A stretch of DNA of 33,124 nucleotides. Source: Chitinispirillum sp. (lineage in GTDB: Bacteria > Fibrobacterota > Chitinivibrionia > Chitinivibrionales > Chitinispirillaceae). The position numbers and the translations under genes are program-made. Below, in pieces: positions 2,179-6,300 of this stretch. The DNA lies in the NCBI GenBank assembly GCA_007115975.1, contig SKJJ01000059.1:1-33124 (forward strand). Direction: 5' to 3'. The notes beneath the pieces are model-generated. The model had not been told where the DNA came from. It searched no databases and saw only the letters and a list, made by a program, of their open reading frames with translations. Positions within the stretch are counted from its first letter, which is position 1. Each line of letters opens with the position of its first letter.

Positions 2179-2198
2179 ACACCGGGAACATCTTCCCG
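2179..2198. promoter_or_regulatory. Candidate activator-binding palindrome (distal)
   Basis: The site reads ACACCGGGAACATCTTCCCG, with arms CGGGAA and TTCCCG around a 4-base centre. It matches the copy at 2273-2292 in 18 of 20 bases. The differences lie only in the spacer. Its centre is about 190 bp upstream of the start expected from the -24/-12 promoter at 2357, a usual range for sigma-54 enhancer-binding proteins. Function is inferred. Confidence 0.5.
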
Positions 2199-2272
2199 CT
2201 CCGAAGCATATCACCGTTAAACGTTGATTAAAATAGAGTTGCAGCCTAATTACTGGTCTTTGATCATATAGC

Positions 2273-2292
2273 ACACCGGGAATATTTTCCCG
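2273..2292. promoter_or_regulatory. Candidate activator-binding palindrome (proximal)
   Basis: The site reads ACACCGGGAATATTTTCCCG, with the same arms as the distal copy. The two centres are 94 bp apart, close to nine helical turns, which would place them on the same face of the DNA. It lies about 100 bp upstream of the predicted transcription start. Function is inferred from position and symmetry. Confidence 0.5.
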
Positions 2293-2356
2293 AAAACCGT
2301 CTCATTTCTTATTATCACACACCTTATATCTTTTCATATATCAGCGTGTTACGTTT

Positions 2357-2374
2357 TTGGCACACTGTATGCAT
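2357..2374 (+). promoter_or_regulatory. Sigma-54 (-24/-12) promoter
   Basis: TTGGCACACTGTATGCAT has GG (2359-2360) and GC (2371-2372) exactly 10 bases apart, with TGGCAC at the -24 element. The -12 element is ATGCA instead of TTGCA, one base off the consensus. It lies 50 bases upstream of the lipoprotein start codon and downstream of two candidate activator sites. It implies control by an AAA+ enhancer-binding protein not encoded here. Confidence 0.65.
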
Positions 2375-2423: not shown

Positions 2424-3137
2424 ATGAGAGTAAAAACTGGTATTCTCACCCTTGCCGTTGCAGTTATCTTGTCCGGATGTCTCTATGAGCTGCCAACTAC
2501 TGTAACGGTACAGGAAACAACGGTGTATATCGACACCTACCTAAGCATTCCCCATACGGTCGCAATGCTCATTGAAAATCGGGTCTATGGGTACGCAACC
2601 CCTGCACTATCACTCTACAGTGATGAGCTCTATTACTATGATATTACAAGAGATAGTCACAATCACCCAGCCTATGTACGCGGAGATTTCAACGGTAACG
2701 GAAGAGCCGATTACGCCTTTCTCTTTTCAAAAGAGGAGTGGTACAGCGGAAAATGGTGGCTCACCACAAAGCTCATTGTCGTAACAGGTTGTTATAACGT
2801 CGGTTACAACATATCTTTGGAACTGGTTTTAGGAACAGTCAGTGCACCGCACCACGTTCCGGTTGAGGAGTTTTGGGCAATCGGTTTGATGCCCCGGGGA
2901 ACTCACACCATCAGTACCGTTCACAGGGGCCTTGTTTATGAGGAGAGTGTGGATCTGGAGAATGATGCATTTCGTCTCATGAGCCTCAATCCTCAGGAAA
3001 GCTCTCTGTTCTATGTTGTTGATAGTGAAACATTTGAGATCTCCTGGGACAGAGGTGTCCGCGCAAAGCAGAAAGTTGCTCCTGATACAACCCGAAGCAG
3101 CAGGATAATTGAGCTTGGTGATTTCAGGCAATTTTGA
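2424..3137 (+). CDS. Lipoprotein of unknown function with an Asp/Asn-rich turn
   Basis: This is a 237-residue predicted lipoprotein. The signal peptide ends in lipobox LSGC, with the lipidated Cys at residue 19. I do not recognise the family of the mature part. It contains DFNGNGRAD (88-96), spaced like calcium-binding turns of FG-GAP/EF-hand-like repeats, followed by aromatic-rich beta-type sequence. A structural calcium site is possible but is inference. The start has a good ribosome site (GGGAG, 2413-2417). No gene in the window is an obvious partner. The gene stands alone between two intergenic regions, and transcription probably starts at the sigma-54 promoter at 2357. That suggests a condition-specific surface or periplasmic product rather than a housekeeping one. 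Confidence 0.8.
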   Translation: MRVKTGILTLAVAVILSGCLYELPTTVTVQETTVYIDTYLSIPHTVAMLIENRVYGYATPALSLYSDELYYYDITRDSHNHPAYVRGDFNGNGRADYAFLFSKEEWYSGKWWLTTKLIVVTGCYNVGYNISLELVLGTVSAPHHVPVEEFWAIGLMPRGTHTISTVHRGLVYEESVDLENDAFRLMSLNPQESSLFYVVDSETFEISWDRGVRAKQKVAPDTTRSSRIIELGDFRQF

Positions 3138-3307: not shown

Positions 3308-3325
3308 TTTGGCATACTCCTTGCA
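3308..3325 (+). promoter_or_regulatory. Sigma-54 (-24/-12) promoter of the giant activase
   Basis: TTTGGCATACTCCTTGCA carries GG (3311-3312) and GC (3323-3324) exactly 10 bases apart. Both consensus elements, TGGCA and TTGCA, are intact. It lies 51 bases upstream of the ATG at 3376. The ACCGGGAA-type palindrome of the previous promoter is absent here. A short direct repeat (GATCCGGCGG at 3136 and GATCGGCGG at 3152) is the only upstream element I noticed. Confidence 0.75.
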
Positions 3326-3375: not shown

Positions 3376-6300
3376 ATGCCGGTACGATCACTTGGAATCT
3401 GCTTTGGAGCATCCACCATAAATGCCGTTGCAATGACAGAGACACCAGAGGGTGCCACTATTACCAACAGAGTAAGCCGGGTTCACGATGGTGACCCCCG
3501 AAGGGTGTTCGAAAGCCTGCTATCCCAACTCGATGTGAACTCTTTTAATTTTGTGATGCTTACCGGAAGAAAATTCAGAAACCTGATCAATGCTTCATCC
3601 ATAACGGAAGCCGAGTCTGTCGAATATGCCCTTAATTACATGAAATCAAAGGGGTTATACGAAGATTCAGGGGCCGTTGCAACACTGGGTGCAGAAAATT
3701 TCATGGTCTATACACTTGACCGGGAAGGGATGATCTGCTCTGTTGAAACCGGGAACAAGTGTGCTTCAGGTACTGGTGATTTTTTTCTTCAGCAGATCAG
3801 ACGAATGGATATATCGATAGATCAGGCAGTTGCTTTAGCCAATGATGCTGAAATATTTGGCGTATCGGGGCGCTGTTCTGTTTTTTGTAAAAGCGATTGC
3901 ACACACGCTTTGAATAAGGGGATCCCGATTGGGAGAGTAACTGCAGGGTTATGCAGAATGATCACGGAAAAAATTCTCGATCTTCTGGAAAAAATACCCG
4001 CCAAGAGAATCATTGCTACCGGAGGGATAACAAACAACACCGTTATAATGAATATGGTGGGGCAGAAAGTGGAAAAGTTGATTATCCCTGAATTTGCAGA
4101 CTCCTTTGAGGCAGTGGGAGCCGCCTGGTATGCACTAAAACAGAGAACGCCGATACGGATCCAGGCAGACAATCTCTTTAAAAAGGATCTCATCTCCTTT
4201 GATACACTACCCCCCATAAGCAGGGGAGAACCTTTGGTTCAGTTTAAAAGTATGGAGACCGGTAAAGCAAAGCCTGCAGATAAGCTCATTGTTGGTCTGG
4301 ACGTTGGCTCAACCACCACAAAAGCAGTTGCAATTCGCAGCAGTGACAGCCAGGTTGTTGCCAGTGTCTATAGGCGAACCAATGGTGCTCCGGTCAATGC
4401 ATCAAGGGAGTGTTACAGAGCACTATGGGAGCAGATCGGTGTGCCTGTTTCCATTATAGGCCTTGGTACTACCGGATCAGGCAGGCAGATTGCAGGACTG
4501 CACGCCGGCACTCAAGCTGTCATAAATGAAATTATAGCGCATGCCGCAGCATCTGCTTTTTTTGATGAGGGGGTAACCACCATTTTTGAAATCGGGGGCC
4601 AGGATGCCAAGTACACCTATCTTACCAATGGAGTGGCATCCGATTATGCCATGAATGAAGCATGTTCGGCAGGAACCGGTTCTTTTCTCGAAGAGTCGGC
4701 CGGGGAGACGCTTAAAACAGGATACAAAGAGATAGAGTCCATTGCCCTGAAGAGTAAAAACCCTCCGAACTTCAATGATCAATGTGCAGCCTTTATCTCT
4801 TCAGACATTAAAACCGCCTCTCACGAGGGGATTTCAACCCAGGACATTATCGCCGGGCTCGTATACTCCATCTGTATGAATTATGTAAACAGGGTTAAAG
4901 GGCAGCGACCCTGTGGAGAGAAAATTTTTATGCAGGGAGGAGTGTGCTACAACAGGGCTGTGCCGCTGGCAATGGCAAACCTGATAGGCAAACCAATCAT
5001 CGTGCCACCGGAACCAGGCCTGATGGGGGCGTTCGGAGTAGCTATTGAGGTCAAAAAACGGATCAGTTGCGGGCTGCTGAAAAAGGAGCACTATGACCTC
5101 CAGGCTCTTTATAACAGGGAGCTGATACAGGGCAAAAAATTCATCTGCAAAGGTGGGCAGGAAAAATGCGACAGGAAATGTGAAATCAACAACCTTATTG
5201 TTGAAGGAGTGAAATATCCTTTTGGCGGAGCGTGCAACAGGTATTACAATCAGATCTACAAGTTACACCACGATAAAAACAGGCACGACCTTGTTACCCA
5301 AAGACAGAATTTAATCTTTCACCGTGCCTTACCCGCACAGCCAAACAAGGAAAAAACTATTGGAATAAATCGCTCATTTCTTACCAATATGTTGTATCCT
5401 CTCTATTCTACCTTCTTCTCTGAACTTGGATTGAAAGTGCTGTTATCTCCCGATATTAATCCCGAAGGGATAAAGCGCAAACGGTCATCGTACTGCTATC
5501 CGGCGGATATCGCCCATGGAGCGTTATACAGTCTTCTGCAGGAGAGGCCCGACTATCTCTTTTTACCAAAAGTCGTTGAACTGTTTGTAGAGAACGCACC
5601 CACCAGAAGACGGGAACATCAGTGTACCTGTCTTCTGCTGCAAAGTGAGCCATACTATTTGAAGAGTGCTTTTAAGGATATGATCGCCCAGACTAAACTG
5701 ATCTCTCCCGTGCTTGATTTCTCCCAGGGTTACGATTCTCAAGCTGTGGTATTTATCACCATTGCACTGGAGTGTGGTTTCAGCGGACAACAGGGTTTAA
5801 CTGCTTATGAAAGTGCCGTAGCAGCCTACAGGGAGACCTGCTTTTCTATGAAAAAGAGGGGTAAAGAGGTTTTACAGGAGCTTGAAAGTGACCCGGAAAA
5901 AATTGCAGTTGTACTTTTTGGACGGCCCTACAATGCGTTTGCAGAGGAGGGCAACCTGGGGATACCGGGCAAGTTTTCTACCAGAGGAGTAACCATAGTC
6001 CCCTATGATTTTCTCCCCTTTGAAGAGGAAATTTGTCCCATGGATATGAACTGGGCTATTGGACAGAACCTTATGAAGGCAGCAAAGATGGTTGCAGCAA
6101 ACCATCGGCTTTTTGCTGTTTACATAACCAATTTCAGTTGTGGCCCCGACTCGTTTCTTACCGGCTATTTCCGCGACATCATGAAAACAAAACCATCACT
6201 CACCCTTGAACTCGACAGCCACACCGCTGATGCAGGGGTCGACACCAGAATTGACGCTTTTCTTGATATAGTAGATTCATACAGAACAATCAGCAGACCG

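Follow-up and report, generated by a model that had tools for sequence, protein, structure and literature searches.

Architecture of the lipoprotein promoter region

The 33,124-nucleotide stretch of Chitinispirillum sp. DNA analyzed here (hereafter the window) carries, on the plus strand at 2424–3137, a gene for a 237-aa lipoprotein with the lipobox ILSGC and a GDFNGNGRADYA motif. It is preceded on the same strand by a -24/-12 (sigma-54) promoter sequence, TTGGCAC-N5-ATGCA (2357–2373), in which GG (2359–2360) and GC (2371–2372) are separated by exactly 10 bases, as a first-pass annotation of this DNA had reported. This site, TTGGCACACTGTATGCA, has one mismatch to the sigma-54 consensus TGGCAC-N5-TTGCW, and its -24 GG lies 65 bp from the lipoprotein ATG. 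Promoters of this class are RpoN-dependent and start transcription ~12 bp past the -12 element; the lipoprotein transcript is predicted to begin near 2384.

Further upstream, two 20-mers, ACACCGGGAACATCTTCCCG (2179–2198) and ACACCGGGAATATTTTCCCG (2273–2292), start 94 bp apart and are identical at 18 of 20 positions, with both mismatches confined to the bases between the palindrome arms, in full agreement with the annotation. Each consists of the shared flank ACAC (from 2179 and 2273, respectively) followed by a palindrome of the form CGGGAA-N4-TTCCCG: the distal copy CGGGAACATCTTCCCG (2183–2198) is centered 168.5 bp 5' of the -24 GG, and the proximal copy CGGGAATATTTTCCCG (2277–2292) 74.5 bp 5' of it. 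Core matches with up to two mismatches number 6 in the window against 1.26 expected. Relative to the predicted start the centers fall at approximately -100 and -194, close to the ~100 and ~190 bp first proposed. Bacterial enhancers (UAS) are repeated dyads ~80–200 bp 5' of a transcription start, and the window palindromes lie within this range, at positions that are conserved.

An IHF-consensus site that the annotation had overlooked, TATCAGCGTGTTA (2339–2351, plus strand), agrees with WATCARNNNNTTR at 9 of 9 positions and occupies GG-20 to GG-8. It thus lies between the UAS and the promoter and corresponds, at the consensus level, to the IHF-type bend site that is common, though not universal, in such regions. 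Together, UAS, IHF site and -24/-12 element make up a textbook arrangement (PMC7057263, PMC7175178, PMC3709507).

Two other elements of the window were recorded alongside this layout. A separate strong hairpin, CCCGGTGTT-TG-AACACCGGG (2079–2100), lies 3' of a MacB-like gene and has ACACCGGGA in common with the palindromes; it could be either a terminator or a relic. A second -24/-12 site, TTGGCATACTCCTTGCA (3309–3325), is a perfect consensus match before a 1429-aa BadF/DUF2229 activase gene at 3376. It is accompanied by neither palindromes nor an IHF consensus (IHF score 0/9) and is probably served by a different enhancer-binding protein (EBP).

A third motif copy and the putative target gene families

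Searching the 3.9 Mb genome with the 20-mer returned two exact matches, both in the window, and one copy with a single mismatch, CCACCGGGAACATTTTCCCG, on another contig (G000:C220:106315–106334). The latter precedes a -24/-12 site, TTGGCACAGACTGTGCT, and its center lies 74.5 bp from the GG, the same distance as for the proximal window copy. The gene behind this promoter (G000:C220:106473) encodes a 162-aa Cys-rich exported protein with a signal-like N-terminus and no match in Pfam or NCBIfam, which we infer to be controlled like the lipoprotein. A whole-genome scan with the 16-bp core, allowing up to one mismatch, yielded no further copy suitably spaced from a good -24/-12 site.

The lipoprotein had been described as an orphan, a view that does not hold: relatives with 36–44% identity are present in 13 of the 39 other genomes of the order, and named records of the family come from Fibrobacterota MAGs (Chitinispirillaceae, Chitinivibrionales and 'Fibrobacter sp.'). 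The protein has no Pfam or NCBIfam match, and its predicted structure, of fair quality (pLDDT 78), gave no fold match against the PDB. In five relatives (G005, G008, G009, G011 and G016), a homologue of the Cys-rich protein is encoded directly 5' of the lipoprotein gene. The two genes with this shared promoter layout are therefore adjacent elsewhere, evidence for a common regulon that does not depend on the motif. An outer-membrane-barrel-like gene lies 3' of the Cys-rich gene in three relatives (L194, 8042–9310; L192, 10819–11172; L193, 3133–4392), where the two probably share one transcript; the one barrel-like protein that was tested gave weak PorV/FadL matches.

Counting palindromes alone was less useful. 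Across 40 genomes, matches showed a raw excess over a reversed control, yet most lay inside reading frames without a rightly spaced promoter; the excess is therefore uninformative and was dropped as evidence. The same distribution of CGGGAA-N4-TTCCCG matches within the order could suggest that the window copies are themselves chance repeats or codon-driven matches. We consider this scarcely credible, as the intergenic copies keep both their spacing and the identity of the neighboring gene across families whose proteins are only 36–44% identical.

A conserved promoter layout in relatives

To compare the layout, we used the -24 GG as the reference point for an alignment of sixteen promoters. Our initial promoter filter required GC at -12 and missed orthologous promoters in which, as in many relatives, GA or GT replaces it. 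The filter was then relaxed; because this was done after the upstream regions had been read, its looser version was in part tuned to these very sequences. At unchanged spacing, TGG(C/T)A at -24 and TTG at -12 are retained in the orthologous promoters.

In 14 of the 16 promoters, the center of the proximal palindrome lies 73.5–75.5 bp from the -24 GG, two of these sites being no better than four-mismatch matches. The exceptions are the promoter in G035, where the distance is 64.5 bp (about one turn less), and the lipoprotein promoter of G027, which has no proximal site. The distal palindrome lies 156.5–168.5 bp from the GG in most promoters and 143.5 bp in G035, and in several promoters one palindrome of the pair is weak (3–4 mismatches). 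Spacing between the palindromes is 94 bp in the window, about nine helical turns as originally noted, but 89–93 bp in most relatives and 81 bp in one; since it varies in this way, phasing between the palindromes is not a general property. The conserved spacing is that from palindrome to -24, rather than that between the palindromes.

The IHF consensus WATCARNNNNTTR recurs at GG-20 to GG-8 with at least 7 of 9 positions matched in 15 of the 16 promoters, and its score at GG-20 averages 7.9/9 over all 16, compared with 3.3 at other offsets. A CARCRYGTTAYG box that had appeared to be private to three promoters was discarded as a separate element, the alignment showing it to be the right part of the IHF site.

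These distances bear on what the palindromes do. Each folds into a 6-bp stem, and in G035 and G030 a T run follows a palindrome, as might be expected if the palindromes were intrinsic terminators or other RNA hairpins that end upstream transcripts. However, neither window copy has a T run behind it, an Rfam search gave no match, and terminators would not be expected to stay 74–75 bp away from the -24 element that follows them in 14 promoters; such a role is highly improbable. Binding of a repressor, or of some other regulator unrelated to sigma-54, would suit a 16-bp dyad, which is a generic operator shape, but the sites lie 75–168 bp upstream and do not overlap the promoter. Moreover, a -24/-12 element is always present, the IHF consensus nearly always lies between it and the palindromes, and an EBP operon (below) is adjacent, making this explanation very unlikely.

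Synteny and co-occurrence with an EBP operon

In three relatives (G014, G024 and G030), the lipoprotein gene adjoins an operon encoding a TPR protein, a Ser/Thr kinase and an EBP. The palindromes flank this operon in G024 and G030 and sit 3' of the EBP gene in G027, G032, G033 and G036. In all six of these genomes the gene 3' of the EBP is equipped with a palindrome and a -24/-12 site of its own, and in several cases that gene is recognizable by eye as a relative of the Cys-rich protein. The expectation that a palindrome copy would mark the activator gene was thus borne out in relatives, but in the present genome no palindrome was found near the orthologous EBP. Conservation of the palindromes upstream of lipoprotein orthologues, another prediction made for the motif, was seen in 6 of 6 other genomes with both the lipoprotein and the EBP, weakly in two.

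We also conducted a blind fixed-spacing search of 40 genomes. Five matches had no more than one mismatch, all within the eight EBP-bearing genomes, and the remaining matches had three mismatches each, which is the background level; because two of the five had defined the pattern, three are independent. In the seven genomes that have the lipoprotein and lack the EBP, neither a phased palindrome nor a -24/-12 site was found up to 400 bp from the unit; G011 does carry a two-mismatch palindrome in that interval. The lipoprotein gene tree places the loss of the EBP and of the sites in a single joint change, so these seven absences amount to one consistent loss rather than seven cases, and for this reason we made no use of an exact test comparing presence of the EBP with that of the sites (7/7 versus 0/7). 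A stronger argument than co-loss is that the positions have stayed fixed while the proteins of these lineages have diverged to ~40% identity.

Two further loci were noted. In G035 the layout precedes a Pro-rich exported protein (L025, G035:C398, 1498–1900, intergenic), with palindromes 64.5 and 143.5 bp from the GG; neither an EBP orthologue nor the lipoprotein was found in this genome, which is 79% complete. On the far side of the same intergenic region there is a second CTCATARCGTGTT element. In G030, a perfect palindrome lies 74.5 bp 5' of ATGGCATAGTGTTTGCA at the gene for a small exported protein without a family (L142, G030:C380, 6427–6834). This promoter lacks the IHF consensus, and the protein is a probable further regulon member in that genome.

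The candidate activator

The activator had been expected to lie outside the window, and the likely candidate is indeed encoded on another contig. Contig C47 carries the EBP orthologue (G000:C47:29178–30680) as the third gene of a TPR protein/Ser-Thr kinase/EBP operon whose products are 50–54% (TPR protein), 38–55% (kinase, aligned parts) and 61–65% (EBP) identical to those of the relatives' operons. The kinase (L147, G000:C47, 5702–7066) comprises a Pkinase domain at its N-terminus, a hydrophobic stretch and, at its C-terminus, a domain that is PEGA-like by eye, an arrangement conserved across the orthologous operons. The EBP and the lipoprotein lie on different contigs of a draft MAG with 5.25% contamination.

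The C47 EBP matches Sigma54_activat (PF00158) at 234 bits, above the cut-off, and ends in a Fis-type HTH (HTH_8, PF02954, 27.9 bits against a cut-off of 22). The GAFTGA motif is present in six of seven EBP orthologues and reads GSFTGA in G014, while the HTH region, NLTxAAxILxIDRKSLRxLxEKY, is nearly invariant across all seven. The 190-aa N-terminal region has no Pfam match, GAF included, and no receiver domain was found in the protein. The NifA model aligns from residue 29, covering the N-terminal region too, with a score below its curated cut-off, and the scores for the NifA, NorR, ZraR and NtrC equivalogs all fall below theirs. The predicted structure of the EBP is a poor model. The genome also encodes the sigma factor that such a system needs, as a search for rpoN, whose absence would have argued against the annotation's reading, located Sigma54_DBD (202 bits) at G000:C18:5544–6017. 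A motif scan for HU/IHF proteins, restricted to the retrieved loci (a small part of the genome), found none.

Because the genome contains ~14 full or partial EBPs, we chose the C47 protein on the grounds of its synteny in relatives and of co-occurrence. The palindromes might instead be enhancer sites of another member of this set, and G035, which has the sites and no detectable C47 EBP orthologue, fits such an assignment. Nevertheless, synteny between the C47 family and the sites is seen in six other genera, and all site-bearing lipoprotein genes occur in genomes that encode an EBP of this family; we consider a different EBP unlikely.

Discussion

Reading the window layout as a sigma-54 enhancer region, as the first-pass annotation did, is strongly supported by the presence of rpoN, the third palindrome copy at 74.5 bp, the conserved layout and the EBP synteny. 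On these sequence-based grounds, we consider it very likely that the palindromes are the UAS through which the C47 EBP activates the lipoprotein's sigma-54 promoter with the help of IHF-type bending. Specifically, the EBP, which has a Fis-type HTH, would bind both palindromes as dimers and assemble into a hexamer. An IHF-type protein (IHF or HU-type) would bend the DNA at 2339–2351, and the AAA+ ring of the EBP would contact sigma-54 polymerase at 2357–2373 and open the lipoprotein promoter. The C220 unit, encoding the Cys-rich exported protein, would be under the same control.

The activating signal may reach the EBP through the operon kinase or through its N-terminal region, which could be GAF-like. 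One possibility, which we put forward tentatively, is that the exported or membrane TPR protein and the membrane Ser/Thr kinase control the EBP by Ser/Thr phosphorylation and so switch on a small Fibrobacterota envelope regulon; such a signaling system, encoded within one operon, would then involve neither a histidine kinase nor a small ligand. The regulon most likely serves an envelope response, since the targets look exported and an outer-membrane-barrel-like gene follows in relatives, matching the pattern described for sigma-54 (PMC3162934).

That these genes form a new regulon, within a type of system already known, is well supported. Our literature search found no paper on these protein families or on the regulon, and the palindrome arms occurred in one sigma-54 paper as primers only. 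In an order that has been little studied and is largely uncultured, the analysis thus links an uncharacterized EBP to a likely motif, promoter grammar and set of targets, and it traced this regulator from a window that does not encode it. Motif and spacing are sufficiently well defined to be examined directly in binding and reporter assays, and control of the EBP by a Ser/Thr kinase could be tested with three genes. The conserved pairing of the two is a control mode missing from the published table of bEBP groups (PMC7175178).

Among known systems, PspF/pspA of E. coli, in which two UAS and IHF-assisted looping serve a sigma-54 promoter responsive to membrane stress (PMC3709507), resembles the one proposed here in combining two UAS with IHF at a sigma-54 promoter and in having an envelope-related target. 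PspF, however, lacks a regulatory domain and is held by PspA, whereas the C47 EBP has a 190-aa N-terminal region, is co-encoded with a Ser/Thr kinase and is associated with a different palindrome sequence. NifA, NorR and FhlA (bEBP group 3, PMC7175178) are likewise AAA+ sigma-54 activators with a Fis-type HTH, and NorR is among the best-scoring models for the C47 EBP. The C47 protein nonetheless scores far below the curated nifA and norR cut-offs and has no Pfam GAF match, and its system differs from those of GAF-type EBPs in its DNA site and in its kinase and TPR partner genes.

ZraR, one of the nearest relatives of known structure for the AAA+ and HTH part of the C47 EBP, drives the small exported protein ZraP from a sigma-54 promoter through sites that neighboring genes also use, much as we propose that the C47 EBP drives a small exported protein. 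ZraR is a response regulator whose partner is the histidine kinase ZraS; in contrast, no receiver domain was found in the C47 EBP, and its kinase is of the Ser/Thr type. More broadly, the putative targets identified here, namely the lipoprotein, the exported Cys-rich protein and, downstream in relatives, the outer-membrane-barrel-like protein, are in keeping with the view that sigma-54 governs the bacterial exterior (PMC3162934).
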